A DNA stretch of 38,313 nt. Source: Bacteroidia bacterium. Its GTDB lineage: Bacteria; Bacteroidota; Bacteroidia; J057. Of the stretch, positions 106-29,255 are shown in pieces (within the stretch, counting starts at the first letter, position 1; every line of letters begins with the position of its first letter). The notes beneath the pieces are model-generated. The model was not told the origin of the DNA, did not search any database, and was given only the letters and a program-made list of their open reading frames with translations. Where the stretch lies: contig JAUIKF010000070.1 of assembly GCA_030430575.1 (NCBI GenBank), forward strand, positions 1 through 38,313, written 5' to 3'. The translations under genes were made by a program, and so were the position numbers.

Positions 106-124
106 CTAGGTCTGAGGTATAACC
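98..124. repeat. Short repeat at the CHAT stop site, copy 1
   Basis: The 24 bases ttattcactaggtctgaggt plus ataa match 21 of 24 bases of a segment around 3641-3664. This copy holds the two stop codons that break the CHAT frame. In the minus-strand -1 frame both copies can read YT(S/L)DL(V/M)NN, with differences mostly silent or conservative. Confidence 0.5.
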
Positions 125-6445: not shown

Positions 6446-6579
6446 CGATGTCTGAACGCTTGTGCGGCCGATTGTCTGATTGTTGATGTTTTACTTGTCC
6501 TGAAAAAAGACTTGGCCAATGTTGATCCTTCTACTCTTGTAGTAGGCGGGAAATGTGTACTCGCTGTCGGCCTGAAGAA

Positions 6580-6605
6580 TGCCGAAACGCCAAAAAGGAA
6601 GTAGG
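6580..6605 (+). repeat. Dispersed 26-bp repeat, copy 1
   Basis: The sequence begins tgccgaaacgcca and ends aagtagg. It matches 16521-16546 in the same orientation with two mismatches in 26. Both copies lie just downstream of a plus-strand gene. Confidence 0.6.
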
Positions 6606-6722
6606 CGAATCATCAACCCTAATTTTTTATTGTAAAATCACCATCAACCGTTTCTCGCTCATTACGCTAGTCGCTTTGTTAGGTCCTTGATAACAAAAAA
6701 TTCGGGGTGACACATGTTTATT

Positions 6723-6730
6723 TATATTTG
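6723..6730 (+). promoter_or_regulatory. Candidate Bacteroidota -7 promoter box
   Basis: TATATTTG matches the Bacteroidota -7 consensus TAnnTTTG exactly. It is about 70 bases upstream of the HMA lipoprotein start. No clear TTTG -33 element is visible at the usual spacing, so support is partial. Confidence 0.3.
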
Positions 6731-6798
6731 GGCATAAAATGGGCGTCTGTATGGTGCTATTTGGTATATGACAAATAACTCCCTGACACATCAACTAT

Positions 6799-7176
6799 AT
6801 GCATCGAATTAATCAATCAATAATCAATCAATTAATAATTTCCCTACTCCTCATGGTGCTAGCGAGTTGTGGGGGGAACTGGCAAAAAGCGCAGTTCTTC
6901 GCGCAAGGGAACTGTGAAGCATGCAAAGCCCTTATCGAGGCTTCTCTCGATGACCAACCTGGCATAGACAGCGTAGGGTGGGATTTTGCTTCAAGCTTAA
7001 TCACGGTGAAATACGACCCTGCCAAAACCACTCCCGATCACCTGCAACAAGCCATCGCCAAAAAAGGCTTCGAAACGCAGTTCTATCCTGCAGATGCTGC
7101 AGCCCAGAAGGCTTTGCCTGCCTGTTGCCAGGAAGCAATCAACAGGAAGCTGAAAAGTAACCAATCACCTCACTGA
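6799..7176 (+). CDS. Lipoprotein with heavy-metal-associated (HMA) domain
   Basis: This is a 125-residue protein with a lipoprotein signal (LLLMVLASCGG, lipobox LASC near residue 24), so it is probably anchored in the envelope. An HMA/ferredoxin-like fold follows: the metal loop GNCEACKALI (CxxC, in place of GMTCxxC), then IDSVGWDFASSLITVKYDP and LQQAIAKKGFET. A further CC pair (PACCQEA) near residue 110 could also bind metal. Such proteins bind or pass soft metals such as copper. No efflux ATPase or copper regulator lies beside it. The upstream Asn/Gln/Ile-rich start (HRINQSIINQLII) is compatible with a short n-region. Confidence 0.8.
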   Translation: MHRINQSIINQLIISLLLMVLASCGGNWQKAQFFAQGNCEACKALIEASLDDQPGIDSVGWDFASSLITVKYDPAKTTPDHLQQAIAKKGFETQFYPADAAAQKALPACCQEAINRKLKSNQSPH

Positions 7177-7276
7177 GAAAGTTTTGAGTTTTTTGTTTTG
7201 GGTTTTGTGTTGGGGAGAGCCAACTATTTAGGTATTGGGATGGTTAGGAAGCTGTGGAAAGAAAGAAAGTAAAGAA

Positions 7277-7324
7277 AGACCTCGGAGGATTAATAGCCAA
7301 TTTTGGCTTAATCCTCCGAGGTCT
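7277..7324. repeat. GACCTCGGAGG palindromic repeat, copy 1 (hairpin)
   Basis: The arms agacctcggaggattaa and ttaatcctccgaggtct are perfect 17-base reverse complements, with a shorter inner agcc/ggc stem. A second copy lies at 37797-37844. It sits between the HMA gene and the CrtD-like gene and could end transcription of the former. Confidence 0.75.
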
Positions 7325-7330
7325 ACTGAG

Positions 7331-7365
7331 CTTAAACTCTTAAACAACTTGAACTTTTGAACCCT
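7331..7365. repeat. CTTAAAC...TTGAAC repeat, copy 1, over the CrtD-like start
   Basis: cttaaactcttaaacaactt continues to gaacttttgaaccct. It resembles 19941-19976 and contains the TTG used as the start of the desaturase gene. Confidence 0.45.
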
Positions 7366-8826
7366 CCCCGTTCCGTCGTCATAGGTGCCGGTGTCGCTGG
7401 CCTTGCCGCTGCCATTCGGCTGCGCCTCAAGGGCTATGACGTCACTGTCATAGAGGCCAATGACTACGTCGGCGGAAAACTCGCTGAGATAGACTTGGAT
7501 GGGTACCGTTTTGATGCGGGGCCATCGCTGTTTACCATGCCATCCCTGGTGGATGAGTTGTTTGAATTGGCAGGAAAAAATCCAGCAGATTACTTCCGGT
7601 ATCGACAATTAGGGCTGATCTGCCGCTATTTCTATGAAGACGGCTTGGTACTCAATGCCTGGTCAGACCCTGAGCGATTTGCGGAGGAGGTGGAGGAAAA
7701 GACTGATGCCTCAAAAACGCAAGTACTGAAGCTACTGCGCAAGAGTAAGCGAATCTATGACATCACCGCCCATGTATTCTTATTTCGGTCTTTGCACCGA
7801 ATGAAGACGTACCTGCGCTGGCAGACGGTGAAGTCCCTGCTGCGGTTTCCGCAGATCGACCCTTTGCGAACCATGCACCGCGCCAATCAACAAGCGTTTA
7901 GCGACCCACGCCTTGTGCAGCTATTTGACCGCTATGCGACCTATAATGGGTCCAATCCTTATGAGTCGCCTGCTACCCTGAGTGTCATCCCTCATTTGGA
8001 GTTTGGGCAGGGGGCTTACCTGCCTGAAGGAGGCTTGGTAGCTATCCCCAAGGCCCTGCATAGGCTAGGGGAGGAGCTGGGCGTGAAGTACCGCCTGGGA
8101 ACCCAGGTATCTCGCATAGAGGTTGAAGGGGACGCTGTGACAGGCGTAGTTGTAGGGAGCCAACGGCAACCTTTCGAGCTAGTCGTAAGCAATATGGATG
8201 TGGTGCCCACTTATCGCAAGCTGCTGCCCAAGCTGCCGGCCCCTGAGCGCACGCTCAGCCAGCCCCGATCAAGCTCCGCTTTGATCTTTTATTGGGCGAT
8301 ATCTCGGACTTTTTCCCAAATCCACCTGCACAATATCTTCTTTAGCCAGGACTATCAAGCCGAATTTGAACACCTTTGGGACCAAAAAACGGTGTATCAC
8401 GATCCGACAGTATATGTCTTTGTGAGTTCGAAGGCTCTGCCTGAAGATGCGCCTGAAGGCTGTGAAAACTGGTTTGTGATGATCAATGTGCCAGCCAATG
8501 AAGGCCAGGATTGGGATCGTATCATTGAGGAGGCACGGTCGAATATTTGGGCAAAACTGTCGCGCATTCTGGGGGAGCCTGTTGCGCCGCACATCGCGGC
8601 GGAGGACATCCTCGATCCAAGAAGCATAGAGGCTCGAACTTCGTCCTACCAAGGCGCACTGTACGGCAGCAGCTCCAATAACCGCTTTGCAGCATTCCTT
8701 CGCCACCCCAATTTTCACTCCAAGCTCAAGGGCTTGTATTTTGTGGGCGGAAGTGTGCATCCTGGAGGAGGCATTCCGCTGAGCCTGCTATCTGCCAAGA
8801 TCGCCACTGAGAATTTGAGTTTGTAA
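7357..8826 (+). CDS. CrtD-like carotenoid desaturase (phytoene desaturase family)
   Basis: This 489-residue FAD-dependent oxidoreductase has the Rossmann motif GAGVAGLAAAIRL (about 9-21), then YVGGKLAEIDLDGYRFDAGP, and the C-terminal signature GLYFVGGSVHPGGGIPLSLL. FDAGPSLFTMPSLVDELFEL and the YFYEDG segment fit the CrtD-like (hydroxycarotenoid 3,4-desaturase) branch better than phytoene desaturase CrtI, but this is a judgement by eye. The start is taken as the TTG at 7357: in-frame stops at 7327 and 7333 leave no ATG, and the dinucleotide-binding strand starts six residues later as expected. The TTG lies within a TTGAAC-type repeat. No other carotenoid gene is in the window, so the gene is isolated. 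Confidence 0.85.
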   Translation: MNPPRSVVIGAGVAGLAAAIRLRLKGYDVTVIEANDYVGGKLAEIDLDGYRFDAGPSLFTMPSLVDELFELAGKNPADYFRYRQLGLICRYFYEDGLVLNAWSDPERFAEEVEEKTDASKTQVLKLLRKSKRIYDITAHVFLFRSLHRMKTYLRWQTVKSLLRFPQIDPLRTMHRANQQAFSDPRLVQLFDRYATYNGSNPYESPATLSVIPHLEFGQGAYLPEGGLVAIPKALHRLGEELGVKYRLGTQVSRIEVEGDAVTGVVVGSQRQPFELVVSNMDVVPTYRKLLPKLPAPERTLSQPRSSSALIFYWAISRTFSQIHLHNIFFSQDYQAEFEHLWDQKTVYHDPTVYVFVSSKALPEDAPEGCENWFVMINVPANEGQDWDRIIEEARSNIWAKLSRILGEPVAPHIAAEDILDPRSIEARTSSYQGALYGSSSNNRFAAFLRHPNFHSKLKGLYFVGGSVHPGGGIPLSLLSAKIATENLSL

Positions 8827-9134: not shown

Positions 9135-9159
9135 AACTTTCTAATAATCACAACCATGC

Positions 9160-9325
9160 TGTCATTTCGACGACTTGAGGCATGCCCTGAGCCTGTCGAA
9201 GGGCTTTGTGAAAGGAGGAGAAATCCAACACGCCCTTTTGTTTTGGTTGAGCACTGTTGGTTTCACGCGTTTTGAATAGACTGCTGGACCACATTGTTAG
9301 ATTTCTCCCGATGGTCGAAATGACA
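9160..9325. repeat. Palindromic repeat with TGTCATTTCGAC ends
   Basis: The left end tgtcatttcgacgac continues to ggagaaatcc. The right end gatttctcccgatggtcgaa continues to atgaca. Together they form terminal inverted repeats around about 100 bases that include ccctgagcctgtcgaaggg. It lies 25 bases upstream of the isomerase gene at 9351 and looks like a non-autonomous, MITE-like intergenic element. Confidence 0.6.
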
Positions 9326-9350
9326 ACATTGTTGTAAGAAAAAAATAATA

Positions 9351-10403
9351 ATGAAAAACATAAAAGGCCCCGCCATTTTCTTGGCGCAGTTTATGGGGGA
9401 TGAAGCCCCTTTTAATAGCCTGGACAGTATTTGTCAATGGGCATCGGATTTGGGATTCAAAGGGATACAAATCCCGACGTGGGAGTCGCGATTGATCGAT
9501 GTGCAACTGGCGGCGGAGAGTAAAACCTATTGTGATGAGCTGAAGGGAAAAATCGCTGGTTATGGACTGGAAATCACAGAGTTGGCGTCCCATATCCACG
9601 GGCAACTCGTGGCTGTGCATCCTGCTTATGATGAGCTGTTTGACAGCTTTGCAGATGCCTCGGTTCGAGGCAATCCCAAGGCCCGTCAGGCATGGGCTGT
9701 CCAGCAAATGCTGGACATCGCCAAGGCGTCTCAGCACTTAGGACTTGGTGCCCATGTGACGTTCTCTGGCGCTTTGCTATGGCCATTCCTCTACCCCTGG
9801 CCGCAACGGCCCGCAGGCTTGGTAGAACAAGGGTTCGAGGAACTCGCCAAGCGGTGGCGGCCCATCTTCGATGCCCATGACGAGGCAGGCGTAGACGTCT
9901 GTTTCGAACTGCATCCCAATGAAGACTTGCACGATGGCGCAACCTTCGAGCGCTTCCTGGATGCCGTAGACGGCCATAGCCGCTGCTGCATCAATTATGA
10001 TCCCAGTCATTTCATCCTCCAGCAGATGGACTACCTGCAATTCATAGACCTCTACCACGAGCGTATCAAGGCCTTCCACGTCAAAGACGCGGAGTTCAAC
10101 CCTAGCGGACGAGCTGGCGTCTATGGCGGGTACCTTGACTGGATCGACCGCCCTGGCCGATTCCGTTCTTTGGGCGATGGGCAAGTGGATTTCCAAAGTA
10201 TCTTCAGTAAGTTGGCACAATATGATTATGACAGTTGGGCGGTGATCGAGTGGGAATGCTGTATCAAGCATCCTGAGGATGGGGCACGAGAAGGAGCCCA
10301 GTTTGTCGAGGATCATATGATCCGCGTGACGGAGCGTGCGTTTGATGACTTTGCGGCTACAGGGGCTGATGATGGGCTGAATAAGCGGGTGCTGGGGTTA
10401 TGA
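9351..10403 (+). CDS. Sugar phosphate isomerase/epimerase (AP endonuclease 2-like TIM barrel)
   Basis: This is a 350-residue cytoplasmic protein with no signal peptide. The fold is a xylose-isomerase-like barrel. Visible metal ligands in family order are Glu in VCFELHPNE, Asp in INYDPSHF, His in KAFHVKDAE and Glu in AVIEWECC. The active-site segment YGGYLDWIDRPGRFRSLGDG is typical of the sugar-isomerase branch that acts on ketose or inositol-type substrates. The ATG at 9351 follows an A-rich leader without a strong Shine-Dalgarno site. The large PQQ-type lipoprotein gene is next downstream and a second, exported family member is at 13788, so a sugar-oxidation locus is likely. The exact substrate is unknown. 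Confidence 0.85.
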   Translation: MKNIKGPAIFLAQFMGDEAPFNSLDSICQWASDLGFKGIQIPTWESRLIDVQLAAESKTYCDELKGKIAGYGLEITELASHIHGQLVAVHPAYDELFDSFADASVRGNPKARQAWAVQQMLDIAKASQHLGLGAHVTFSGALLWPFLYPWPQRPAGLVEQGFEELAKRWRPIFDAHDEAGVDVCFELHPNEDLHDGATFERFLDAVDGHSRCCINYDPSHFILQQMDYLQFIDLYHERIKAFHVKDAEFNPSGRAGVYGGYLDWIDRPGRFRSLGDGQVDFQSIFSKLAQYDYDSWAVIEWECCIKHPEDGAREGAQFVEDHMIRVTERAFDDFAATGADDGLNKRVLGL

Positions 10404-10531
10404 GACCGTTCGGCTCGAAGACTCGCCTCACTGCGAGACCGCTCAGGCCGAGGACGGCCTTCGCTGCAAGATCGTTCGTCGCGGAGCTCCTCACTGCGAG
10501 ACCGCTCGGCTCGAAGACTCGCCTTCGCTGC
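10402..10531 (+). repeat. Degenerate tandem repeat, four units of 30-34 bp
   Basis: Units begin at 10402, 10435, 10468 and 10498. Each runs from a (g/a)aga(c/t)cg(t/c)tc core to a ctgc end. Unit 1 overlaps the stop codon of the preceding isomerase gene. The reverse strand reads as alternating 'gaagactcgcc'/'gagaccgctc' blocks. It gives a false in-frame extension to the next gene. Confidence 0.7.
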
Positions 10532-10540
10532 AAGACAAGA

Positions 10541-10576
10541 AAAGTCCTCACGCTCACTCTCAACCTCACACTTCTT
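10541..10576 (+). repeat. 36-bp direct repeat, upstream copy
   Basis: The segment aaagtcctcacgctcactct continuing to cacacttctt matches 10695-10730 at 34 of 36 bases. The two copies flank a GTCCCCC element. Confidence 0.7.
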
Positions 10577-10581
10577 ACTCT

Positions 10582-10678
10582 GCGCGTGTCCCCCTTGAGT
10601 GTTGGAGGGTGCGGTAGGCGACTTGTGCTGAGCGAAGCCGAAGCAAGGGGGAGGCCTCGTGCGACAGGGGGATGTTTT
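10582..10678 (+). repeat. GTCCCCC...CAGGGGGAT element, copy A
   Basis: An approximately 97-bp segment starts gcgcgtgtcccccttg and ends gcgacagggggatgtttt. A related ~100-bp copy is at 14687-14786. The ends form a short imperfect inverted repeat (tcccccttg/gaggggga type). It has a repeat-sequence character, not coding. Confidence 0.65.
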
Positions 10679-10694
10679 AAGCAGCGAGATAAAA

Positions 10695-10730
10695 AAAGCC
10701 CTCACTCTCACTCTCAACCTCACACTTCTT
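10695..10730 (+). repeat. 36-bp direct repeat, downstream copy at the gene start
   Basis: The segment aaagccctcactctcactct continuing to cacacttctt ends two bases before the ATG at 10733. It is 34/36 identical to 10541-10576. Confidence 0.7.
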
Positions 10731-10732
10731 CA

Positions 10733-13423
10733 ATGACCCACCTTCTACGCCTTATACCCTTATTATTCCTACTGTTAACTGCCTGTGGCACTCCTGCGGA
10801 GAATCAACAAAATCCTTTGGGGCAAAAGGCGGAGGATGGCCCTCCCCAACAAAATCGTTTGGTGAAGCAGGTCCTCGACGAAGTTTTTGACGAGCCGATG
10901 GAGATGGCCTTGTTGCCAAATGGAGATATCCTTCTGGTGGAGCGAAAAGGCGCGATAAAGCGCTTTGACAAGGTGACTCGACAGACTGTGGTGGTCGCTG
11001 AGCTGAATGTCCATCAGACCAATGAAGATGGGCTGCTGGGCTTGGCGCTTGATCCAGACTATTTACACAATCACTGGATTTATCTTTTCTACTCACCCCC
11101 AGGTTTCCTTCCCTTACAATACGTATCGCGGTTTGAGTATTGGAACGATGAGGTGAAATTAAGTTCTGAGAAAGTGATCTTGGAAATTACCGTACAGCGC
11201 GATGAGTGCTGCCATTCGGCAGGTTCATTGGAGTTTGGCCCAAAAGGCAATCTCTTCATTTCTGTGGGGGACAACACCAACCCATTCGAATCGGGCGGCT
11301 ATGCGCCGATTGATGAACGTCGCGGTCGAAAGGCATTTGACGCGCGCCGCTCGTCCTCCAATACGCAAGATCTGCGCGGCAAAATCCTGCGGATACATCC
11401 AGAGCCAGACGGCTCCTACACCATTCCCGACGGGAATTTGTTCCCTAAGGACGGCACGCAAGGGCGTCCTGAGATCTATGTCATGGGCTGTCGCAATCCC
11501 TTTCGCTATGCTATCGATAAGGAAAGGTATTTCCTTTATTGGGGAGATGTGGGGCCAGATGCGGCCTATGACAGCTTGGGCCGTGGGCCCAAAGGGCATG
11601 ACGAACTCAACCTGGCCATGAGCCCAGGCTATTACGGTTGGCCCTTGTTCAATGGCAATAATAAGCCCTACAATGCCTTTGATTTCACCACCAAAGTGTC
11701 TTCTGATTTATTTGATCCCAAAGCCCCGCTCAATACTTCCAGAAATAATGCAGGCATCCAGGAACTACCTCCCGCCCGATCTGCGCTGATTTGGTATCCC
11801 TATGATATCTCCGTCGAATTCCCCATGACCAAATCGGGTTCTCGCAATGCCATGGCTGGCCCGACGTATTACGCGGCTGGTTTTGAAGGTTCGCCTGTCG
11901 CCTTACCTGCTTATTATAATGGGAAAACGATATTTTTTGATTGGATGCGTGGATGGATGTTTATGCTGAGTGTCAGTGATTCGGGCAAATTGGAACACAT
12001 TGAACCCTTTGCCCCACACCTCAAATTCAACAACCCCATTGATATGGAGCTGGCGCCTGATGGGAGTTTGTATGTGTTGGAATACGGTACAGGTTGGTTT
12101 TTGGAGAATCCAGATGCGCGGATCTCTCGAATTATTTATGAGCGAGGCAATCGAGCCCCTTTGCCCAAAATCACGACGGATCGCACCAATGGTGCAGCAC
12201 CACTGACCGTTTCGTTTTCTGCTAGTGAATCCGTGGATTTGGATGGTGATTCCTTGACGTATAGCTGGTGGGTAGGGAATGCCCATTATTTTCCTGATAA
12301 AAAAGGGCTTACCCTTACGCATACTTTTGAAACACCAGGAAGCTACGACGTGCGGTTACGTGCAGCGGATGATCAGGGCAAAAAAATGGATACGCATATA
12401 GAAATAGTAGTGGGCAATGAGGCGCCTACGTTGGATTGGCAGCTAACTGATCGGAAGGGAAACGCGGTAAACAAAAGCTTTTATTGGGCGCGGCAATGGA
12501 TAGCCTATCAGGTGATGGTAAGTGATTTGGAAGACGGTACCCTAGCCGAAGGCATTGATGCCCAAGATGTGGCCGTGAGTATCGATTATCTCAAGGAAGG
12601 CATGGACCCTGCCGAGATCAGTTTGGGCCACCAAAGCCAGGCTGCTGTGGTGACAGCAGAGGCATTGCTCGAAGCGAATAATTGCATCGCTTGTCACAAG
12701 CTGGATCAGGCATTGGTAGGCCCAGCCTATGGGGAAGTGGCAGATGCCTACCGCAATCGGACAGATGCCATCGACTATCTAGTAGGAAAAATCCTCAAAG
12801 GAGGCACAGGCGTCTGGGGGGACCATGTCATGGCGGCCCAGCCTCAACTCTCGGCTACGGAAGCTACCAAAATCGCCCGATTTATCATGAGTCTAGGGCA
12901 AGGCCCTGCAGAAGTGCAAGGCTTGCCAGTAGATGGCACTTTTACCACCGTCAGCAATGCCAAGAAGGGGGCTTATTATTTGCAAGCGACTTATACAGAC
13001 CGAGGGGCTGCGGGTGTTCCTGCATTAAAAGGCCAGGCCAATCTCCTACTTCGCGCCCCTTGTGTTGAAGTAGAAACCATCGAATTAGGCCCAGGGGTGT
13101 TGCCCATAGAATTGGGCCAAGGGCCCTTTGTAGACAATCTGGTAGATAGTGCCTATCTTGTGTTCCGGCATATTGATATGACTGGGTTGGGAAGGGTAGT
13201 GTTCCAATTTGCCAATGTGACAGGAGGGCGTGTCGAGCTACGGCTCGATGGGTTAGGGGGACCGCTGGTCAGCGAGACTGCCTTGGTCAAAGACCAATTG
13301 ATCTATGAAGCATCGTTGAAGCCTGCTAATGACTTTCACGACCTCTTTGTCGTTTTCAGAAATGAACAAGTACCTGGGATGTCTATGGCGGGGCTGGATA
13401 GGATGTGCTTTCGAAGAGAATGA
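10733..13423 (+). CDS. PQQ-type glucose/sorbosone dehydrogenase-PKD-cytochrome c-CBM lipoprotein
   Basis: I take the start at the ATG at 10733, giving 896 residues. The open frame extends to 10400, but the extra 111 codons are tandem and periodic repeats. From 10733 a lipoprotein signal is clear (LIPLLFLLLTACGTP). The domain order is: a glucose/sorbosone dehydrogenase six-blade propeller (about 45-460; GLLGLALDPDY, DLRGKILRI, GCRNPFRYAID); a PKD-like domain (about 470-560; GAAPLTVSFSAS, VDLDGDSLTYSWWVG); a class I cytochrome c with CIACHK at 651-656 and a Met in HVMAAQP; and a CBM6-like C-terminus (about 740-896; HIDMTGLGRVVFQFANV). It probably oxidises a sugar in the envelope and passes electrons through its own heme. 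Sugar-isomerase genes flank it. Confidence 0.9.
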   Translation: MTHLLRLIPLLFLLLTACGTPAENQQNPLGQKAEDGPPQQNRLVKQVLDEVFDEPMEMALLPNGDILLVERKGAIKRFDKVTRQTVVVAELNVHQTNEDGLLGLALDPDYLHNHWIYLFYSPPGFLPLQYVSRFEYWNDEVKLSSEKVILEITVQRDECCHSAGSLEFGPKGNLFISVGDNTNPFESGGYAPIDERRGRKAFDARRSSSNTQDLRGKILRIHPEPDGSYTIPDGNLFPKDGTQGRPEIYVMGCRNPFRYAIDKERYFLYWGDVGPDAAYDSLGRGPKGHDELNLAMSPGYYGWPLFNGNNKPYNAFDFTTKVSSDLFDPKAPLNTSRNNAGIQELPPARSALIWYPYDISVEFPMTKSGSRNAMAGPTYYAAGFEGSPVALPAYYNGKTIFFDWMRGWMFMLSVSDSGKLEHIEPFAPHLKFNNPIDMELAPDGSLYVLEYGTGWFLENPDARISRIIYERGNRAPLPKITTDRTNGAAPLTVSFSASESVDLDGDSLTYSWWVGNAHYFPDKKGLTLTHTFETPGSYDVRLRAADDQGKKMDTHIEIVVGNEAPTLDWQLTDRKGNAVNKSFYWARQWIAYQVMVSDLEDGTLAEGIDAQDVAVSIDYLKEGMDPAEISLGHQSQAAVVTAEALLEANNCIACHKLDQALVGPAYGEVADAYRNRTDAIDYLVGKILKGGTGVWGDHVMAAQPQLSATEATKIARFIMSLGQGPAEVQGLPVDGTFTTVSNAKKGAYYLQATYTDRGAAGVPALKGQANLLLRAPCVEVETIELGPGVLPIELGQGPFVDNLVDSAYLVFRHIDMTGLGRVVFQFANVTGGRVELRLDGLGGPLVSETALVKDQLIYEASLKPANDFHDLFVVFRNEQVPGMSMAGLDRMCFRRE

Positions 13424-20799: not shown

Positions 20800-23454
20800 C
20801 TACTTTTTCTTCCACACATACCAGCCAAGGCCCAGTAAGAAAAGGAGAAGCCCTATTCCCCCCAAATAGCTTCCAATCGCCCTTTGGGGCGCAATCACCT
20901 GCATATTTCCAATCGCGATCATCGCCGCCCAGTGACCAGGGTGGTCTTGCCATCTCCCGTGCTGCTTGCGGTCACGGAAGTCCATTTTAGCCAGTCTCAG
21001 GGCTTCATCTATGGGATACCCTTCTCCTAAGTATTGGTACAAATGCTTCATGATAAAGGCGTTAGGAGCGTGTTTCACCTTCCATTGAGAAGCGATGACG
21101 CTGCGGCAGCCGGTATGAAAGAACGCTCTTGCGAGGCTCATCACGCCTTCTCCCTCTTGAATCTTCCCGTTACCAGTCTCACAGGCACTCAGGACTGCCA
21201 GCATGGCCTCTATTCGGAGCTTATACAATTCCTCTAACTTCAATAGAGACGTGTCACCCAATCCGCGAAATACAATGTAGGCACTGTCTTGGCTGGCTTC
21301 AGCATGTGTTGACAGGTGAAGAAATGCCATCAGTGGGGCATCTTTTATTAGTTGGATAAAATTGCGTTTAGTTGCTATATCATCATCCAGCCGCTCATTT
21401 TTGTCAAAAAACTGACTAATCGCGTCAAGGACCAAAGTACTTTCCTTTAGTTTACCAAACCTGATATCCTCAAAACTCACAGGCGCTACCCCCAACCAAG
21501 GTTGTTTAATGAGGTCATGTTGTGGTTTTCGTTCCAGGTAACTTCCGATGGTAGCCGAAGGGAGATAGGCAATGACATGGTCATCAATGAGGTAGTGAAG
21601 CCGTGTGGAATCACTTAGGAGAAATGCTTCAAAGGGCAAATTGTACAATTGACCATCTGGGATGATAAGGAGTTTTTCCTGAAGCCCAGAAAAAGGAGCG
21701 ACTAGTTCCTGATAAAGTACGGCAGCGCTTTTTTGGCAGGCATCCGCTGCCCCGTCTGATAGTTGATGAATAGTCTGTTTATACGTACTTATTGCAGTAA
21801 TTAACGCTGGCGAAATGGGCATTCGCTGAATTTCTGGTAAGCCCTTATGATTTACCTTAATCCCATAACAAATAGAATCTCCCCAGAAATAGGAAATCAA
21901 GCTTTGGTTGGGCAGGAGACGCTGTTGCATGTCCGCTAGGGAAATCGGCTTTTGCTGATCCGCCAATTTTCCTTTCACTTGCATCCTGAGCAGATGCTCA
22001 GCCAAGACGACGGCCTTACTGGTCTCCAGCAGCTCCCAGAAGTCTGCATAGGCATGGGGACCTTTTTGCTGGGTCCGCAAGTCAGCAGCAGCCAAGGCTT
22101 CCTCATGACGCTCATGGCTACGCTCAGCCTCTATGAGGCGAGAGCCTTGACCTGCTAGCGATTGCCGTTGGCGGAATACCTGCTCTGCGCGGATCATCAA
22201 GAGATAAGCAGCTACCGAGTGGTCCAATAAGCTGTCTTGCGCAGATGCCACCGCCCATTGGTGCAAGGCCTTGCCTTTGGCAGCCAGCAAGCGGAACAAG
22301 AGGTTCTCTGGTTCATTGATGACCGAATCTGGGGGTAACTGGTAGCTATCCAACGTATCAAAATGCACAGGCATAATCCTGTAAAGGCCCTTTTGGAAAT
22401 TCGCTACCGCCGCTTCAAATGCCTGCATCTCAGCCAGGCATCTGCCTTTGGCCAGGTATTGCTTGGCGATGTCGCGGTTGGGGCCGGTAGGGTGGAGTCG
22501 GTGGAATTGCTGTAAGGCGGTGTCAAAATGCGCAAGGGCGCTGTCGTAGCTCCCTTGCATTTGTAATGATTGGGCGAGGAAGCCGTGACTTCTGGCGAGG
22601 TTCCCAGCATCATAGGCATCATCCCCATATTCAGTAAGTCCCTCAATCGCCCTCAAAGCAAATAGCTTGGCTTGCGAAGGGTCTTCTGATAGGAGGTAGA
22701 CTTCTGAAGTAAAGGAATTGCTATAACAAATCACTTTAGGGATATGATATTCGTTGCGTGCAATCTTTTTGGCAGAATCGAAATGATGAATCGCTGCTTC
22801 GGGCATATTCCATGCCTTATAAGCAATCCCTATATCAATATAAGAATAGCTTATATCCTTCCAATATTTTTGATTCTTGGCATCAGAGGTGACCAATTTT
22901 CTAAAATTTTGTATCCCAGCCTTCAATGAATCAATCCCATCTGAATATTCACCTCTGTCACGGAGTAATTTTCCTAACGGCCGTTGACAAAAAGCCAATC
23001 TTTTGTAATCCTTAAAACGCGCATATATTGGGATAGCAAGACGGAAATAGGTGAGAGCACTGTCGGTAAAATGGCTACGGTTAAATGCCAGGGCCTTTCT
23101 CCTGTAGGCTTGAGCTTCTAGGATATCTCCTTTTTCAATCTTCAATACACTATCAGCAAATCGATGGCATTGACGAATAAAAAAGGTGGGGGTGAGCGCT
23201 TCTTGCTGTTCCCGAATCTCCAGATTACCACTATAGCGATAAGCTTTGAACGAAATGTCATACATCCATTCTCGCTTGGTCGAATCAGAAACCTCATTTA
23301 ACGCAAGCCAAAAGGACTCCTCAGCACATAAGGAGTCCCCTTTTCCCCAATAATCAAATCCTTCTTCAATATGCTGCCATAGAGAATCCTGGGCAGGACA
23401 TACAAGTCCATTGATTACCCAACATACCCATAGGAAAGTGATGCGGTGATTCAT
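20800..23454 (-). CDS. Exported TPR-CHAT (caspase-like) membrane-anchored protein
   Basis: This 884-residue protein has a signal peptide (FLWVCWVINGLVCPAQ), TPR and TPR-like helices (about 25-460), a linker, a CHAT domain (about 510-850) and a C-terminal transmembrane segment (GGIGLLLFLLGLGWYVW) ending KKK. The predicted topology places TPR and CHAT in the periplasm with a short cytoplasmic tail. The caspase-like pair is intact: His717 in LHLSTHAE and Cys758 in LSACETG. RSVIASQWKV is also conserved. The start codon overlaps the stop of the upstream gene (23451) by four bases, so the two are co-transcribed and probably coupled. CHAT proteases of this type are usually activated by partner proteins sensed through TPRs; the substrate is unknown. 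Confidence 0.92.
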   Translation of the reverse strand: MNHRITFLWVCWVINGLVCPAQDSLWQHIEEGFDYWGKGDSLCAEESFWLALNEVSDSTKREWMYDISFKAYRYSGNLEIREQQEALTPTFFIRQCHRFADSVLKIEKGDILEAQAYRRKALAFNRSHFTDSALTYFRLAIPIYARFKDYKRLAFCQRPLGKLLRDRGEYSDGIDSLKAGIQNFRKLVTSDAKNQKYWKDISYSYIDIGIAYKAWNMPEAAIHHFDSAKKIARNEYHIPKVICYSNSFTSEVYLLSEDPSQAKLFALRAIEGLTEYGDDAYDAGNLARSHGFLAQSLQMQGSYDSALAHFDTALQQFHRLHPTGPNRDIAKQYLAKGRCLAEMQAFEAAVANFQKGLYRIMPVHFDTLDSYQLPPDSVINEPENLLFRLLAAKGKALHQWAVASAQDSLLDHSVAAYLLMIRAEQVFRQRQSLAGQGSRLIEAERSHERHEEALAAADLRTQQKGPHAYADFWELLETSKAVVLAEHLLRMQVKGKLADQQKPISLADMQQRLLPNQSLISYFWGDSICYGIKVNHKGLPEIQRMPISPALITAISTYKQTIHQLSDGAADACQKSAAVLYQELVAPFSGLQEKLLIIPDGQLYNLPFEAFLLSDSTRLHYLIDDHVIAYLPSATIGSYLERKPQHDLIKQPWLGVAPVSFEDIRFGKLKESTLVLDAISQFFDKNERLDDDIATKRNFIQLIKDAPLMAFLHLSTHAEASQDSAYIVFRGLGDTSLLKLEELYKLRIEAMLAVLSACETGNGKIQEGEGVMSLARAFFHTGCRSVIASQWKVKHAPNAFIMKHLYQYLGEGYPIDEALRLAKMDFRDRKQHGRWQDHPGHWAAMIAIGNMQVIAPQRAIGSYLGGIGLLLFLLGLGWYVWKKK

Positions 23455-25544
23455 TCTGTTTTTGAGGAAATGGATCTTCTTCTTCGAAATAGGCTGTAAG
23501 CACCAAACAAAAACCCAAAGCCCAATAACAGGGATATGGGATAAGCAATTATGGGGTCTTCAATGAGCCAATAACGCCAACATACCCAGATAGTCCTTTT
23601 TTTACAAGCAGGGCAATCCGATTTCTCACAAGGATAATCCCTCAAAAGATTCACACAGATCAATACTTCAATCGTCTCACAGACCAGTGGTGCCTCGTCA
23701 GCTCCTACGGCACATACTTCAAAACGCAAGGTATCTACCCCTGAGATAAATCCATCATGATCTTGATTTTTCAAAAAATAGGCTACTTCCCCCCCATTGT
23801 CCCACTTCTTCTCAAAATCTGTGTCCATGGTTGTCCTAAATGTATGCTCAACCAGCCTGATCCGCCAGGCGGAATTAGGGGAAGGCAAAAGGCCTTGTTT
23901 CCTAAAATCATCGAGTTTAAAGGTAGTAATGGTAGTCTGTAGGGTAACAGGACCATTTAGATTTGTCCCTTTTACAACAGAATCTCTATGGGTCAAAGGG
24001 CAGCACCATTTCTTGATGGTCGCTGGTGAGGAATATAAAACATCAGCAGATCGTAGATATTTCCCACTTGCGTCGTTCACCCGCCCAAAAAACTCAATTC
24101 CGGCCTTGTTTTCGATTTGGACATTATTCTCTTGAAAACACTTCGTACTGATCAAAAACTCAATGCTTCCCTGAGTATGTTCTTCCTGAAAATTGGTTCC
24201 GAAGTCCCTATGCTTTTTCCCAAATAAATGCCCTCCCTGGAAGGTCCAAGTAATCTTTCGGGTATCGGGATCATAGTGATAATGGTAGGTAAATTGGCGG
24301 TTTTTGCCTCCACTGGGATCTGAAAGAAGGGGAATATCCTCCATCATATTGCCGCTAGCATCTTGCACGACTTGATCCCCAAGCCGCACAAACCGCATCT
24401 GCATAGTAGATTCATCCAGTCGCTTGTCCAAGACATCCGTCACGATAACCTGAGCCGTCTCATCAGCACTATCATTTGAAAACTCTATGCGATAGTGAAT
24501 ATCTTGAAGAGGAGCTTTGGTGATTTCCCAATAATCCGTTGTATCGGCCAAGCCATTCATAATCATCCATTTATTATTGGGATCATAGGGGTCTCGCTTA
24601 CTCAAAATTTCTACTTCATCTGTAGTACAGCTAGCACTAGTACAGCCTGGATTTGGGAGAATGTGTACTTCTACTTGAGTAGATTGAATAGGGAGCTGGT
24701 CAGGCGTATATAGATTTAGCACTAAATGCTGAAGGCCTTCTATATCATACGGGTTTGTAATTTCCATGCAATAGGCAGGATCTCCTGCACTGTTCATGCA
24801 AGTACTTGTATAGCAGGTATAGTCACACGTCGGTGGTTCTATTAGCGGAACGCCTGGGGGGAGGTCATCTCCTAGGACACATTTTGGAGGGATATGATAG
24901 ATCGTAAAAGCCTCATTCATGACGACCTTTACGGTATATCCCACATCAATCATGCAACGCGTGACATTAAAATCTATTAATAAGTTGGTATAAAAGGTCT
25001 CGCGAGGCTGTCTGGTAAATCGGACATCACAAAAGGTGGAGTCACCGTCATTCGGAGGTCCAGGGGGAGGGCTGGTACAACTAGTCGAAAAGCCTGGCAT
25101 ATCCACCGTTCCGAGGTCTTGCTTTCGAAGTGTTTCGTCATCATCGTCTGAGGGTGGGGTCTTTCTATATAAGGCAATTTCTATCCTTGGATTATTGCAG
25201 GTCATTAAGTCTGGGACGTCAATACAAGCTTGATAACATGCCGTTCCATCAAATATGAGTTCTCCTGCAAAGATAGAATCTGACCAAAAATACTGCCCAT
25301 CTTCGCAAGTGAAGAAAAGTCTATAGTGAGGAGAAAAGGTTGGATCAGATTGGTCAAAAATGGCAAGGTCCGGCAAATAATGTACACATATTTGCTTGTC
25401 ACAATCTGTACCACCAGGCATATCCTCTACGGTCACACAGGCTTGAGACAGATCTGTGACACATTGGCTCACTGGAGGGCATTGCCCATAACTAGTCACA
25501 ATCGAAAAAACGAGAATTACACCTACCAACCATTCTTTTTTCAT
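23451..25544 (-). CDS. Exported Cys-rich protein with C-terminal membrane anchor, operon partner of TPR-CHAT
   Basis: I take the ATG at 25544 (697 residues) because a signal peptide MKKEWLVGVILVFSIVTSYGQ starts there; the longer frame adds 42 residues without it. The mature part has many Cys residues. A DPNNKWMIMNG segment is followed by IHYRIEFSNDSADETAQVIV and TDVLDKRLDESTM, which resembles the DPN-type repeat domain of Bacteroidota surface proteins (I/L-Y-x-I-x-F-x-N, then V-x-D-x-L-D-x-x-L-D). Near the end are CPACKK, a hydrophobic segment (PIIAYPISLLLGFGFLFGAY) and RRRRS, so it is anchored in the inner membrane with the bulk outside. It is the first gene of the operon and overlaps the CHAT gene. 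It may be a substrate, ligand binder or scaffold for it. Confidence 0.78.
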   Translation of the reverse strand: MKKEWLVGVILVFSIVTSYGQCPPVSQCVTDLSQACVTVEDMPGGTDCDKQICVHYLPDLAIFDQSDPTFSPHYRLFFTCEDGQYFWSDSIFAGELIFDGTACYQACIDVPDLMTCNNPRIEIALYRKTPPSDDDDETLRKQDLGTVDMPGFSTSCTSPPPGPPNDGDSTFCDVRFTRQPRETFYTNLLIDFNVTRCMIDVGYTVKVVMNEAFTIYHIPPKCVLGDDLPPGVPLIEPPTCDYTCYTSTCMNSAGDPAYCMEITNPYDIEGLQHLVLNLYTPDQLPIQSTQVEVHILPNPGCTSASCTTDEVEILSKRDPYDPNNKWMIMNGLADTTDYWEITKAPLQDIHYRIEFSNDSADETAQVIVTDVLDKRLDESTMQMRFVRLGDQVVQDASGNMMEDIPLLSDPSGGKNRQFTYHYHYDPDTRKITWTFQGGHLFGKKHRDFGTNFQEEHTQGSIEFLISTKCFQENNVQIENKAGIEFFGRVNDASGKYLRSADVLYSSPATIKKWCCPLTHRDSVVKGTNLNGPVTLQTTITTFKLDDFRKQGLLPSPNSAWRIRLVEHTFRTTMDTDFEKKWDNGGEVAYFLKNQDHDGFISGVDTLRFEVCAVGADEAPLVCETIEVLICVNLLRDYPCEKSDCPACKKRTIWVCWRYWLIEDPIIAYPISLLLGFGFLFGAYSLFRRRRSISSKTE

Positions 25545-25831
25545 GAGTAATGGGGTTTTTTGAACAAGTGAATAATACATAAATATGGCAAAATTTTGTT
25601 TACTTGTCAACACAAATCGAATAATCGGCAAAAGGCACAGTTCCACAGGCGAAAGTTTCCCGTACTTCAAAAACTACCACTTCTACTTACTTATGTACAT
25701 TTTGATGAAAGGTAACCATCCTGTCATTTGTTTTTTTCTCAGGTCATTTTGCCCTATATTTTGCTTTTCATTACTACTCTTCATCCAATTCTTGCTTTTT
25801 TCTGCTTCTCCAAGGTTACCCTTTTCTTCTT
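25545..25831. promoter_or_regulatory. Divergent intergenic region between the CHAT operon and the sigma-factor operon
   Basis: These 287 AT-rich bases must hold promoters for both operons. On the plus strand ccctatattttgc at about 25751 is near the Bacteroidota -7 motif but one base off; on the minus strand ttgacaagtaaacaaaattt followed by tgcc is also near-consensus. The sequence has no ORF of interest. If the sigma factor acts on its own locus, its binding motif would be here. Confidence 0.4.
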
Positions 25832-26440
25832 ATGACATACATCAATAGAAAACGCTGTGCGGCATATACCAATGAAGAACTGCTTGCGATGCTCCGCGAC
25901 AGCAAGACACAGAAGGCTGCCATCGGCTGCATCTACCTGCTGGCACAGGAGCGGCTGGAATGGATGGCGCGAAACTATGGGTTACAGGAGAAATGGTTGG
26001 ATATTGCCAATGACGGGGTGATTATTCTAATTGAAAAAATTGAGCAAAATGCATACGATCCGGCAAGCAACCTGGTCCCATTTTATATAGGCATCTGTAG
26101 GTTTTTGATGTTGGGGGATTTGCGAGACCAAAAGAGACGTGCAAAAGGCAATGCAGCTATCTTGGACAATGATCCAACATGGGCTGAAGTGCCTTCGCCC
26201 GAAGATATTCGGGTACAAATAGAAGACATCAAGGCCCATCAGGACCAGCTAGACCAGTTGGCTGAAAAGATGAAGAAGCTGACAGATATTTGTAAAAAGG
26301 TCTTCAGGCTTCGCCATTGGGAAAAGGACGAAAACGGCAAGAGGCTCAGTTGGGCGGCCATCGCCTCACAAATGGGACATGAAAATGCCCAGGTATCAAA
26401 AAACACCTATGGAAGGTGTAAAAAAGGATTAATAGACTAG
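25832..26440 (+). CDS. ECF-like sigma-70 family factor
   Basis: This 202-residue protein has a region 2-like part (WLDIANDGVIILIEKIEQNA through FYIGICRFLMLGDLRDQKRR) and a region 4-like helix-turn-helix (CKKVFRLRHWEKDENGKRLS, then WAAIASQMGHENAQVSKNTY). The two parts are joined by a Pro/Asp-rich linker (DPTWAEVPSPEDIRVQIE). It is probably an alternative sigma factor. It is divergent from the CHAT operon and the first gene of an operon with the anti-sigma-like gene, 17 bases to its ATG. The region 4 recognition helix could read the divergent promoter region. Confidence 0.85.
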   Translation: MTYINRKRCAAYTNEELLAMLRDSKTQKAAIGCIYLLAQERLEWMARNYGLQEKWLDIANDGVIILIEKIEQNAYDPASNLVPFYIGICRFLMLGDLRDQKRRAKGNAAILDNDPTWAEVPSPEDIRVQIEDIKAHQDQLDQLAEKMKKLTDICKKVFRLRHWEKDENGKRLSWAAIASQMGHENAQVSKNTYGRCKKGLID

Positions 26441-26457
26441 CATTTGAATTGAATGAC

Positions 26458-27216
26458 ATGGAAGATGTAGACGTACAGATCAATGCATATATAGCGGGCG
26501 ATTTAAGTGAGACAGATCGCATAGCCTTCGAGAAGGAGCTACAAGCGGATGCCCAGTTGGCAGCGCGGGTACAGGCGCATCGCGACCTTGAAACGCGCTT
26601 GCCCAAGATGTTTGCCCATCAACAACAAAAGGCTGAGATGCGGGCCTACTTGGCTTCTCTCACCTCAGCAGCATCTACTGCCCGAAATATCAAACCGCTC
26701 TTGATCGGTATTGCAACTGCCTTGGTGCTGCTGGCAGCCCTTGGCTACCTCCTCCTGAGGCCCTGCCAAGACAAAGATATCGTGTTGAGTGAATATATGC
26801 GTGACCTCAATCCCTCCTACATCGAAACCTCGATGGGCGCGGAAAATCCCCTCAAAGACTTGTGGGAGCAAGGCAGCGCACGCTATAGGCGAGAGGAGTT
26901 CTCAGCAGCGCGCGAACTCCTCGGTCAGATTCCCGAATCTGACAACTTCTACGCCAAAGCGCAATTGCTTATCGGCAATTCTCACCTCTCAGAGGGAAAT
27001 TGGGCATTCTCCATTGCTGCTCTCGAACGGTGCCGCACCCTTTCCGATCCTGCCGTCACTGCTGACGCCCCGTGGTTCCTCGCCTTGGCCTATATCCAGC
27101 TGGACAATATCCCACAAGCAGAGGCTGTACTCCAGGAGATTGTGGACAATCAGTGGTTTCGCTATCCTGATGCGAAGGTGTTGCAGAAGAAGATTGGGCG
27201 CTTGTGTGGGGAGTAA
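26458..27216 (+). CDS. Anti-sigma-like membrane protein with TPR domain
   Basis: I take the ATG at 26458 (252 residues); a TTG at 26449 is alternative. The N-terminus (INAYIAGDLSETDRIAFEKE then LQADAQLAARVQAHRDLE) is the anti-sigma pattern of Bacteroidota, without the zinc-binding HxxxCxxC. One transmembrane segment (KPLLIGIATALVLLAALGYL) is followed by a TPR-type domain (YRREEFSAARELLGQIPESD, FYAKAQLLIGNSHLSEGNWA, APWFLALAYIQLDNIPQAEA). The topology predicted is cytoplasmic N-terminus and TPRs outside. It likely holds the sigma factor at the membrane until signalled; the periplasmic TPRs would suit contact with the neighbouring CHAT or Cys-rich protein. This is inferred. Confidence 0.8.
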   Translation: MEDVDVQINAYIAGDLSETDRIAFEKELQADAQLAARVQAHRDLETRLPKMFAHQQQKAEMRAYLASLTSAASTARNIKPLLIGIATALVLLAALGYLLLRPCQDKDIVLSEYMRDLNPSYIETSMGAENPLKDLWEQGSARYRREEFSAARELLGQIPESDNFYAKAQLLIGNSHLSEGNWAFSIAALERCRTLSDPAVTADAPWFLALAYIQLDNIPQAEAVLQEIVDNQWFRYPDAKVLQKKIGRLCGE

Positions 27217-27232: not shown

Positions 27233-28501
27233 ATGAACCTAGATTTTTTTAAACGGAAGAGAGACCCTTTAGCACTTCAGGCTGAATGGAATACGAAAGG
27301 AGAAAAATATGCCACTGAGATCAATGAAATGATCGAATATGGAGAAAGAGTTGGTTGGGATAATTGGAAAGGGAAACCTCCAGAAGATAAACGTGATCAT
27401 TTGGCTGCTGATGTTATCAGACTTTTGAAAAAAGCCAATGAAGAGGGAACTGTTGAAGAATTTCGCAAAAATTTCCCACCAGCACATGCGCCTTTCATCA
27501 ATTATTTTGAGGCGCAAGGCCAAAGCATTGGGCAAATGCATTTTATCCATGATGAAAAGATCGTTTTCCTTACTGGCACTCCCTATCAAAAACGCCAAGC
27601 ATATTTGCTAGATGGAGACCAAACAATTCCCTTGGAATCTACCATTGAGTCTATCGGAAAATCAAAGCAGAATGATGTTTTTGCTGTGCTCGATAAGGGT
27701 AAAATCGTGACGACTCAAGGATGGGAAGGAGACATAATTGAATCATTTGACCTTCAAGAAACAAAGGGACTTGGTGTCACTGAGTTAATCCCATTTAATG
27801 ATGGGAAAAGAATCTTATTAGTAACCGCTGAGGGCATTTACCTCATTTCAAAAGATAAGGAAATCATGGTTCATCCAGTACCTGATTTAGCAGATGAGGA
27901 ATGGGATCAAAGCATCGATATGGAAAATGCGACCTTATCCCATGACAATCAATACATCATTGTTGGAGATCAATGTTCTGATCATAGGATTCTCAATGCT
28001 GAAGGTATGCAAGTGGGAGAAATTGGTCCTCAATCTTCCTATCCTCATTTTTGCCTATTTTCAAAAGATGATTCCCAACTCATCACCAATTCATGTCATT
28101 TCTATAACGGATTGACAATCGGTGTATCTAGCAAACAATTAGTGGGGATAAAAATTGAAGCTTACGAGGAAAGTGACTTATACCAAGTTATTGATGATGG
28201 GATGCGCGTTTATGTTGGGCTTGCTACCCAGGAACATTATATTTTAGGAGATGCCTATGGCAATATAAGAGCTATCTCGTCTGAAGGAAAGTGTATTTGG
28301 AGTCATTTCTTGGGTTCTACTATTGGTGGTTTGGCTATATCAGATGATGAACAGACGCTCTGGGTAGGCTCTTGTACAGGGATGATTCACAAGTTAAGAC
28401 TAGGCCAAGGCCACAGAGACACTCATACCATTGGGAATGGGAATCACTTTGAAGAATTTAGGATAATATTATGGAAAGGGGAGTCGCCCATGATATGGTA
28501 G
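27233..28501 (+). CDS. Cytoplasmic beta-propeller-like protein of unknown function
   Basis: This 422-residue protein has no signal peptide. A short charged N-terminal helix region (about 1-90: DHLAADVIRLLKKANEEGTV) precedes repeated blades with the pattern hydrophobic strand then D/G turn: KIVFLTGTPYQKRQAYLLDG, ATLSHDNQYIIVGDQCSDH, FCLFSKDDSQLITNS, AISDDEQTLWVGSCTGMIH. This looks like a WD40- or quinoprotein-like beta-propeller. It starts 16 bases after the anti-sigma-like gene, so it is probably in the same operon; the codon and base usage is AT-richer. A role in the sigma module is possible but not shown. Confidence 0.6.
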   Translation: MNLDFFKRKRDPLALQAEWNTKGEKYATEINEMIEYGERVGWDNWKGKPPEDKRDHLAADVIRLLKKANEEGTVEEFRKNFPPAHAPFINYFEAQGQSIGQMHFIHDEKIVFLTGTPYQKRQAYLLDGDQTIPLESTIESIGKSKQNDVFAVLDKGKIVTTQGWEGDIIESFDLQETKGLGVTELIPFNDGKRILLVTAEGIYLISKDKEIMVHPVPDLADEEWDQSIDMENATLSHDNQYIIVGDQCSDHRILNAEGMQVGEIGPQSSYPHFCLFSKDDSQLITNSCHFYNGLTIGVSSKQLVGIKIEAYEESDLYQVIDDGMRVYVGLATQEHYILGDAYGNIRAISSEGKCIWSHFLGSTIGGLAISDDEQTLWVGSCTGMIHKLRLGQGHRDTHTIGNGNHFEEFRIILWKGESPMIW

Positions 28502-28583
28502 TTTTTTTCAAAATGCTATTATTTTGTATCCTTGATAATTCTTAAACACTTTTCCAAAAGCGAAGCACTGACTGAACCCAAAT

Positions 28584-29255
28584 ATGCACCTCCCCTCTTT
28601 CTCCCCAGACGAAGACTGGTACGTCGAAGAAGCATTCGAAGCCGCGAAGCGGTTTCGGGGGACGGGCATGTATGTCATCGCCAAGGAGGGAGAATCCGAC
28701 GGGATCATTGGGATTACCGTTAAAAAATACACCTTCGACAAGCCCCAGATTTTTCAGCAAAATGCCCTTACCTATTTTGAAGAGCATCAGGCTAGCATCC
28801 TCGATGCCTTATGCCTAGGGGTCATCGCCGAATATCCCAATATCCTGTCAGTATATGATATAACGGAGCCTGACGGATCCCCGGAATTCCCTCACCTCAC
28901 CTCGATAGAAGAGGTCCAACGCGCCATCGGTATTGGCAATTTGCATATCCTCCATCACTCAAAAGACGACGCCGCGTATGTCGGTCTGGAATGTGGCTGC
29001 CCATGGGATGAAGAACATGGACTGGGCGTGTTGATGCACAAAGAACGTGTCATACAGGTCGGAAGCGCCGATATTTCCTTTTCGGGCTCCCGAACCATCC
29101 GAATCGACAATGGAACCTATACAGAAGAAGAGCGAATTGCCGATGCTGAAAGAGAAAAAAAGCGAGAGCAGGAACGCCTTGCCAATATCGCCCGCTGGAA
29201 GCTAGCAGAGGAAAGAAAGGCGCAGAAGAAGTGGTGGCAATTCTGGAAAAAATAA
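28584..29255 (+). CDS. DUF6985-like cytoplasmic protein with coiled-coil Lys-rich tail
   Basis: This 223-residue protein contains ILHHSKDDAAYVGLECGCPW followed by DEEHGLGVLMHKERVIQVGS and ADISFSGS. I recognise this as resembling the DUF6985 family (conserved CxWDxEHGLGVL and G.AD). Several members are found near polymorphic-toxin or immunity-type genes, but no toxin is visible here. The tail (about 165-223) is a charged coiled coil rich in Glu, Arg and Lys ending WWQFWKK. It follows the propeller gene by about 80 bases. Function unknown; family call moderate. Confidence 0.65.
   Translation: MHLPSFSPDEDWYVEEAFEAAKRFRGTGMYVIAKEGESDGIIGITVKKYTFDKPQIFQQNALTYFEEHQASILDALCLGVIAEYPNILSVYDITEPDGSPEFPHLTSIEEVQRAIGIGNLHILHHSKDDAAYVGLECGCPWDEEHGLGVLMHKERVIQVGSADISFSGSRTIRIDNGTYTEEERIADAEREKKREQERLANIARWKLAEERKAQKKWWQFWKK

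Follow-up and report, generated by a model that had tools for sequence, protein, structure and literature searches.

Does the TPR-CHAT cysteine protease encoded at positions 20800..23454 (minus strand) of this window act on the anti-sigma factor encoded beside it? The window is the whole stretch of 38,313 nucleotides, contig JAUIKF010000070.1 of the Bacteroidia bacterium assembly GCA_030430575.1. Two divergent operons face each other in it across an intergenic region of 287 bases (25545..25831). On the minus strand lie the gene of an exported cysteine-rich protein and the TPR-CHAT gene, on the plus strand the genes of an ECF-like (extracytoplasmic function) sigma factor and of a transmembrane anti-sigma-like protein. 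A first, sequence-only reading of the locus had proposed that the CHAT protease, perhaps triggered through the Cys-rich protein or through TPR contacts, cuts the anti-sigma factor or its partner and frees the sigma factor. The best explanation of the whole is that the CHAT protein is the site-1 protease of the adjoining anti-sigma factor and releases the sigma factor, to which a probability of roughly 0.7 is assigned. The conservation of the module, the predicted topology, the intact catalytic dyad, the fold and a covariation between the protease and the anti-sigma factor are the supported parts of this explanation.

Fold, topology and conservation of the module

The CHAT protein comprises 884 residues and matches Pfam CHAT (PF12770) at 4.2e-50 (171.2 bits, cut-off 24) in addition to TPRs. 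The predicted catalytic residues His717 (codon 21304..21306, minus strand) and Cys758 (21181..21183, minus strand) are both present, and none of the 64 aligned relatives deviates at either position; the His/Cys dyad is found in 126 of 128 scored pairs of CHAT and anti-sigma proteins. The four open reading frames (ORFs), the ATGA by which the stop of the Cys-rich gene overlaps the CHAT start, the divergent gap and the intact dyad had all been pointed out previously and were confirmed on checking the sequence.

The AlphaFold model of the CHAT protein (mean predicted local distance difference test score, pLDDT, 86.4; predicted template modelling score, pTM, 0.84) finds its best structural matches in the PDB in Csx29, the TPR-CHAT protein of Craspase (Z 32.2), followed by the separase ctSPD (Z 27.8), and it also matches the structure of DdvA (Z 22.7, model residues 96-849). 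A full-length CHAT profile was swamped by TPR proteins when compared with the PDB; in the profile of the catalytic domain only, which was used in its place, DdvA ranks first (1e-6, with His and Cys aligned) and the Craspase TPR-CHAT protein follows (0.0016). With 19.9 bits against the NCBIfam Csx29 model, under the cut-off of 300, the window protein falls outside the Csx29 family.

The sigma factor (25832..26440, plus strand, 202 residues) has no Pfam match at E 0.1 and as a single sequence reaches NCBIfam sigma70-ECF at 2.7e-9 (36.8 bits, below the cut-off of 42.9). The profile of its family (A2) matches the ECF sigma factor RpoE (2q1z) at 3.1e-18 over residues 1-188 of 195, and a sigma2-sigma4 likeness is found. 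Within the sigma4 part, C154 and C196 are nearly invariant (at least 90% of 65 aligned sigma factors). The anti-sigma-like gene (26458..27216, plus strand) encodes 252 residues from the ATG at 26458, or 255 residues from the in-frame TTG at 26449. Its residues 9-101 give an NCBIfam anti-sigma match of 24.6 bits, below the cut-off of 100, and a Foldseek search with its structure model returned TPR proteins only, none at E 0.001 or better. As a check on a role in defence, five proteins were compared with PADLOC at E 0.01 and gave no match.

Membrane topology was judged from hydropathy and charge alone. By these measures a signal-like N-terminus and a C-terminal transmembrane segment with a basic tail are seen in both the CHAT protein and the Cys-rich protein; in the former this anchor spans residues 859-877 (20824..20880, minus strand, hydropathy 1.88) and is followed by YVWKKK. 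The anti-sigma protein has one strong transmembrane segment at residues 82-100 (26701..26757, plus strand, hydropathy 2.53; helix 80-99 in the structure model), with the TPR domain C-terminal to it. A plain hydropathy threshold applied to 80 full-length CHAT ORFs of named genomes detects a signal-like N-terminus in 63 and a C-terminal transmembrane segment in 73, and most of the inspected ORFs that miss one of these calls fall barely under the threshold. A net positive tail follows the C-terminal transmembrane segment in 103 of the 107 CHAT relatives that possess one. Among 56 anti-sigma proteins of named genomes, 54 contain a transmembrane segment, with a mean net charge of +2.6 before and -1.25 after it. 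From the charge of the CHAT tail and the charge asymmetry around the anti-sigma helix, the prediction places the CHAT domain together with the TPRs of the anti-sigma protein on one side of the membrane, the periplasmic, and not on opposite sides, in agreement with the earlier proposal. By the same prediction the CHAT protein would have what a site-1 protease requires, namely a periplasmic catalytic domain near a juxtamembrane site.

In the window's own genome (8.16 Mb) 39 CHAT matches were found, 30 of them strong. About 20 kb around the matches was taken, the nine weaker ones being left out of the neighbourhood counts. The profiles for the sigma factor (A2) and the anti-sigma factor (A3) were built from CHAT neighbourhoods and are therefore somewhat biased toward such neighbourhoods. 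Twenty-six strong sigma paralogues stand out in this genome (at least 145 bits, next match 112), and for 24 of them a strong anti-sigma match is located no more than 308 bases away. A strong CHAT gene lies within 10 kb of 19 of these 26 paralogues versus 2 of 31 weaker ECF sigma factors and, counted from the other side, a strong sigma gene within 10 kb of 19 of the 30 strong CHAT genes; about 7% would be expected. This corresponds to about 18 module places, one with two CHAT genes and another with two sigma genes.

The CHAT alignment, run against named genomes, found 78 loci, each labelled as Bacteroidota or one of its groups; 45 of them have at least 5 kb of flank on both sides. In these 45 a sigma gene lies within 5 kb in 37, sigma and anti-sigma genes together within 5 kb in 36, and a sigma gene within 10 kb in 40; for all 78 loci, short contigs included, the number with a sigma gene within 5 kb is 50. 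The gap between sigma and CHAT genes is often only 500-750 bases, and the 37 sigma-CHAT loci are arranged divergently in 21 cases, convergently in 15 and on the same strand in one. Viewed from the anti-sigma gene, a match at 1e-15 is present in 31 of 118 phylum genomes, the window's own included. Of 49 matches in the other genomes 40 were fetched, among which L173 yielded no ORF that survived the filter; a catalytic CHAT gene lies within 5 kb of 31 of the resulting 39 anti-sigma ORFs. Within the window's own family, anti-sigma matches occur in 12 of 13 genomes; of the 28 anti-sigma ORFs located there on complete 20 kb stretches, 17 have a CHAT gene no more than 10 kb away. An iterated anti-sigma profile drifted into the TPRs of CHAT proteins and was dropped for the gene adjoining sigma. 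CHAT, sigma and anti-sigma genes are a conserved three-gene module. The four-gene unit suggested by the sequence-only reading holds for these three, but not for the Cys-rich gene, which is found at five places.

Two variants of the module were observed. At L047 two tandem CHAT genes (5353-8520 and 9150-12317, plus strand, both of 1055 residues) stand beside one sigma/anti-sigma pair. Eleven loci of one family (f22, L175-L185), apparently an orthologous locus, carry a more distant version, with the CHAT gene 2.6-3.9 kb from the anti-sigma gene in 11 of 11 and, in the linker that joins the anti-sigma membrane helix to the TPR domain, an R with S or A as the next residue.

A linker residue and the protease pocket

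This linker is poorly conserved except for one position, residue 126 of the window protein (codon 26833..26835, plus strand), the proposed P1 residue. In the anti-sigma alignment (A6, 70 sequences, 68 scored at this position) it is R in 51, K in 6 and M in 4 sequences, and in 52 of the 68 it is followed by G or S; the window has Met126-Gly127. Residue 126 is located 27 residues past the end of the modelled transmembrane helix, in a segment (residues 121-130) whose mean pLDDT of 70 is among the less confident of the model.

The protease follows the class of this residue, basic or not. Each anti-sigma protein was paired with the nearest CHAT protein (67 pairs, with two anti-sigma genes and one CHAT gene at L085); a gap at the linker column in L031 leaves 66 pairs. 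In the discovery scan, which was made without using knowledge of the S1 pocket of separase, CHAT residues 500-884 were compared column by column with the linker class. The top three columns are 675, 795 and 756, the last of which is two residues before the catalytic Cys. Residue 675 (codon 21430..21432, minus strand, Val in the window) is acidic (Glu/Asp) in 56 of 56 pairs with an R/K linker and in 1 of 10 without (Fisher 2.7e-10), and residue 795 (21070..21072, minus strand, His in the window) in 56 of 56 and 4 of 10, respectively. In the own genome alone, 675 is acidic in 7 of 7 basic-linker pairs versus 1 of 8 others (p 0.0014).

In the phylum set, which was fetched later, an acid is found at 675 in 28 of 30 basic-linker pairs. 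The family set comprises 60 stretches with 61 anti-sigma ORFs, 30 of them with CHAT; L237 lacks the 675 residue and two fail the linker-length filter, leaving 27. With the linker column fixed, 675 is acidic in 13 of 13 basic versus 6 of 13 non-basic pairs (p 0.005), and in most of the discordant rows the basic residue is shifted by one or a few columns. A linker rule, by which any R or K in A6 columns 280-296 is counted as basic, was applied to all sets. It changes the family figures for 675 to 19 of 20 versus 0 of 7 (p 9e-6), where the single basic pair lacking the acid, L197, has PMGAR, and gives 19 of 20 versus 4 of 8 for 795 (p 0.015). Of the 332 CHAT columns scored in the family set by itself, 675 comes out on top. 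Over all sets the rule yields an acidic 675 in 103 of 107 basic versus 2 of 17 other pairs and an acidic 795 in 106 of 107 versus 9 of 19.

In the CHAT model residue 675 is part of helix 672-680, after the first strand (651-657) of the caspase sheet of the catalytic half, while residue 795, which lies 37 positions past C758, is the first of helix 795-810, the helix following strand 785-789. In separase models, according to PMC4626109, two acidic residues bind the P1-Arg: a conserved Glu/Asp close to helix alpha1, following strand beta1, and an Asp at the start of helix alpha4. The P1-Arg pocket of human separase is described as containing D2070, 41 residues after the catalytic C2029, together with T1961 and G2002 (PMC12609080). 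By analogy, CHAT 675 and 795 are proposed to correspond to the two acidic S1 residues of separase. Because the putative S1 pocket covaries with one residue of the linker, the anti-sigma factor is likely the substrate of the CHAT protease. The sequence-only reading is supported to this extent.

The dependence was further compared with the phylogeny. A tree of 124 CHAT domains was computed with the pocket columns left out; on it, parsimony counts 11 changes of linker class and 10 of pocket class. When the pocket state was simulated along this tree 3000 times, no run attained the observed phi of 0.81, the highest value being 0.50. In five genomes 35 of 39 pairs are concordant; shuffling the partners inside each genome yields a mean of 23.8, and 1 of 5000 shuffles is as high. 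The pair 675-126 takes third place among the 152,192 inter-protein column pairs. Neither of its columns has a better partner in the other protein, and the four CHAT columns that pair best with anti-sigma residue 126 include 795 and 756.

Several observations weigh against the assignment of the CHAT protein as the site-1 protease of the anti-sigma factor. A sigma gene within 10 kb is missing at five of the 45 well-flanked CHAT loci from named genomes, and anti-sigma genes without a nearby CHAT gene exist (8 of 39 in the phylum sample, 11 of 28 on the full family stretches). Several of the latter carry a basic linker as well, so that the motif is not confined to CHAT neighbours. In the phylum set two Lys pairs (L154, L155) have the acid at 674 in place of 675, and the set, containing no non-basic pairs for 675, tests one side only. 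In the family set 6 of the 13 pairs classed as non-basic by the fixed column are discordant; the linker rule was chosen after the fixed column had been seen to be misaligned in several members, and 795 is weak there, outside the eight best columns. Two inter-protein pairs, CHAT 773/anti-sigma 210 and CHAT 433/anti-sigma 200, outrank 675-126 and are perhaps contacts or clade effects. The proposed S1 equivalence is drawn from secondary structure, spacing and published descriptions. Finally, the window pair itself belongs to the rarer non-basic class (Met126; V675, H795), which fits the pattern but makes its cut site less certain.

The anti-sigma proteins without a CHAT neighbour were also tried as a negative control for the linker residue, which failed as several of them have a basic residue. 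Another protease shared by these proteins was sought among nine hand-picked neighbour proteins at seven loci and none was found; one large protein contains an M23 domain.

Alternatively, the CHAT protein could be an output of the sigma factor instead of its trigger, the sigma factor turning on the genes of CHAT and of its exported neighbours and CHAT cutting other envelope proteins. The divergent or neighbouring operons suit such shared regulation, as do the variable, often exported products of the genes preceding CHAT. Being an output does not, however, predict that the S1 pocket tracks a residue of the anti-sigma linker, and this arrangement is considered rather unlikely, although trigger and output roles may both hold if CHAT is also autoregulated. 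The covariation would fit as well if the linker were a bound pseudosubstrate that keeps CHAT inactive, so that inhibition and not cleavage is recorded; a securin pseudosubstrate motif that blocks separase has been reported (PMC6858450). The site nevertheless looks cleavable, its R/K standing before G, S or A in a linker close to the membrane, and Csx29, the known parallel, acts on Csx30 by cleavage (PMC10028731), which renders a purely inhibitory linker quite improbable. That the modules merely travel together and the covariation reflects shared descent is very unlikely, since, although related modules share both states and the top-ranked inter-protein pair is not 675-126, some ten changes on the tree, the simulation null and the within-genome shuffles speak against it and the highest-ranking columns fall on the positions that published accounts of separase assign to S1.

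Genes preceding the protease and other neighbours

The gene of the Cys-rich protein (23451..25544, minus strand) directly precedes the CHAT gene and is best started at the ATG at 25544, giving 697 residues with 29 Cys, rather than at a TTG giving 739 residues. The protein matches Pfam DUF7619 at 7.3e-9. An iterated profile identified five members of its family among the 35 stretches searched, and a member directly before CHAT only in the window, L041, L049 and L055. In the other modules this position is taken by exported proteins unrelated to it, which often carry a type IX secretion sorting tail; such a tail is present in 5 of 10 tested genes directly before CHAT (L036, L039, L055, L057, L058). 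The sorting tails hint that some modules deal with surface proteins. As a core component of the module the Cys-rich protein was rejected, given its five places and its replacement elsewhere, and the general role as trigger that had been considered for it is not upheld. It is best regarded as an optional neighbour.

At L046 a CHAT-domain protein of a different type (4944-6959, plus strand, Pfam 1.3e-13), with a weak transporter-like match, is encoded directly before the TPR-CHAT gene. A second TPR-CHAT ORF occurs in the window itself at 106-2280 (minus strand), 105 bases from the contig end. Its CHAT domain ends after about 54 profile positions, so that it is either a truncated gene or an assembly edge. 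Downstream of the anti-sigma gene the window encodes a protein of 422 residues, with no family match above cut-off, and a DUF6985 protein (27233-29255, plus strand).

Proposed mechanism and relation to known systems

The CHAT protein would be a membrane-anchored protease of separase/caspase type, with TPR and catalytic domains facing the periplasm. In the resting cell the N-terminal cytoplasmic domain of the anti-sigma factor would hold the ECF sigma factor. An envelope signal, probably sensed through the TPRs, would activate CHAT, and the exported neighbour proteins are further candidate partners. Active CHAT would then cut the periplasmic linker of the anti-sigma factor about 27 residues past the membrane, after Arg or Lys in most modules and after Met126 here. 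The TPR domain would be shed, an intramembrane protease of the M50/RseP type would cut the exposed stub, and the sigma factor would be freed. The length of the anti-sigma stub would suit M50-type intramembrane proteases, and M50 protease genes are present in the window's genome. Since the S1 pocket and the P1 residue change together, the many copies per genome may be partly insulated from each other. From the supported parts we infer the cleavage itself, the exact scissile bond, the signal, the second cut, the release of the sigma factor and this insulation. Cutting of Csx30 takes place between residues 427 and 429 and is prevented when M427 is deleted (PMC10028731). A preference for Met in the non-basic subclass of the window is only suggested by this analogy.

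DegS is a PDZ serine protease, whereas the window protease is a clan CD cysteine protease with TPRs and many copies per genome. The proposed step is the same in kind as the cutting of RseA by DegS and RseP, in which a periplasmic site-1 cut of a transmembrane anti-sigma factor frees an ECF sigma factor (PMC10028731).

The comparison with Craspase made in the sequence-only reading is apt as an analogy. In the type III-E system of Csx29, Csx30 and CASP-sigma, a TPR-CHAT protease cleaves Csx30, the inhibitor of an ECF-like sigma factor (PMC10028731), and Csx29 chains are the best structural match of the window CHAT protein. Contrary to the latter, with its predicted export signal and anchor, Csx29 is described as cytosolic, bound to Cas7-11 and switched by target RNA (PMC10028731), and the window anti-sigma factor differs from the inhibitor of that system by a transmembrane helix and TPRs. 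The signal-like N-terminus and the C-terminal anchor argue against the window CHAT protein being a cytosolic partner of Cas7-11.

DdvA of Myxococcus xanthus is the transmembrane anti-sigma factor of the ECF sigma factor DdvS (PMC4374960). Judged by the PDB titles, its structures (8rot/8rw5) were deposited as a CHAT domain-containing protein, which matches the window CHAT. DdvA looks like a fusion of protease and anti-sigma functions in one chain; it is a single polypeptide from another phylum, whereas protease and anti-sigma factor are encoded by separate genes in the window. Separase likewise has a caspase-like domain behind helical repeats, with two acids at equivalent positions holding the P1 Arg (PMC12609080, PMC4626109), but is eukaryotic, cuts cohesin and is without a membrane anchor. 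ECF54 sigma factors have a CHAT gene in their gene context, and proteolytic control has been proposed for them; in contrast to the present module, they are proposed to work without an anti-sigma factor (PMC8999054). Systems that combine a caspase domain with an ECF sigma factor and a TPR gene are mentioned for other conflict systems (PMC8195603).

In the open-licence PMC literature no account of an exported, membrane-anchored CHAT protein with sigma and anti-sigma factors was found. The proteolytic control of anti-sigma factors is already known; the kind of envelope protease would be new. More tentatively, and with the odds somewhat against it, the modules could be a phylum-wide set of caspase-like envelope receptors of Bacteroidota: periplasmic TPR-CHAT site-1 proteases in up to about 18 copies per genome, each with its own anti-sigma/sigma pair and partly orthogonal by matched P1 and S1 residues. 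The Csx29-Csx30-CASP-sigma system and the fused DdvA would then be offshoots of this older switch. If the CHAT protein is indeed the site-1 protease of the anti-sigma factor, the many exported TPR-CHAT proteins of Bacteroidota would gain a job, a large set of ECF sigma factors would be supplied with their missing trigger, and the protease of Craspase would have a natural setting outside CRISPR. One substrate residue and two pocket residues should then jointly switch specificity, and the bacterial envelope would hold a rare signalling protease of the caspase/separase type.

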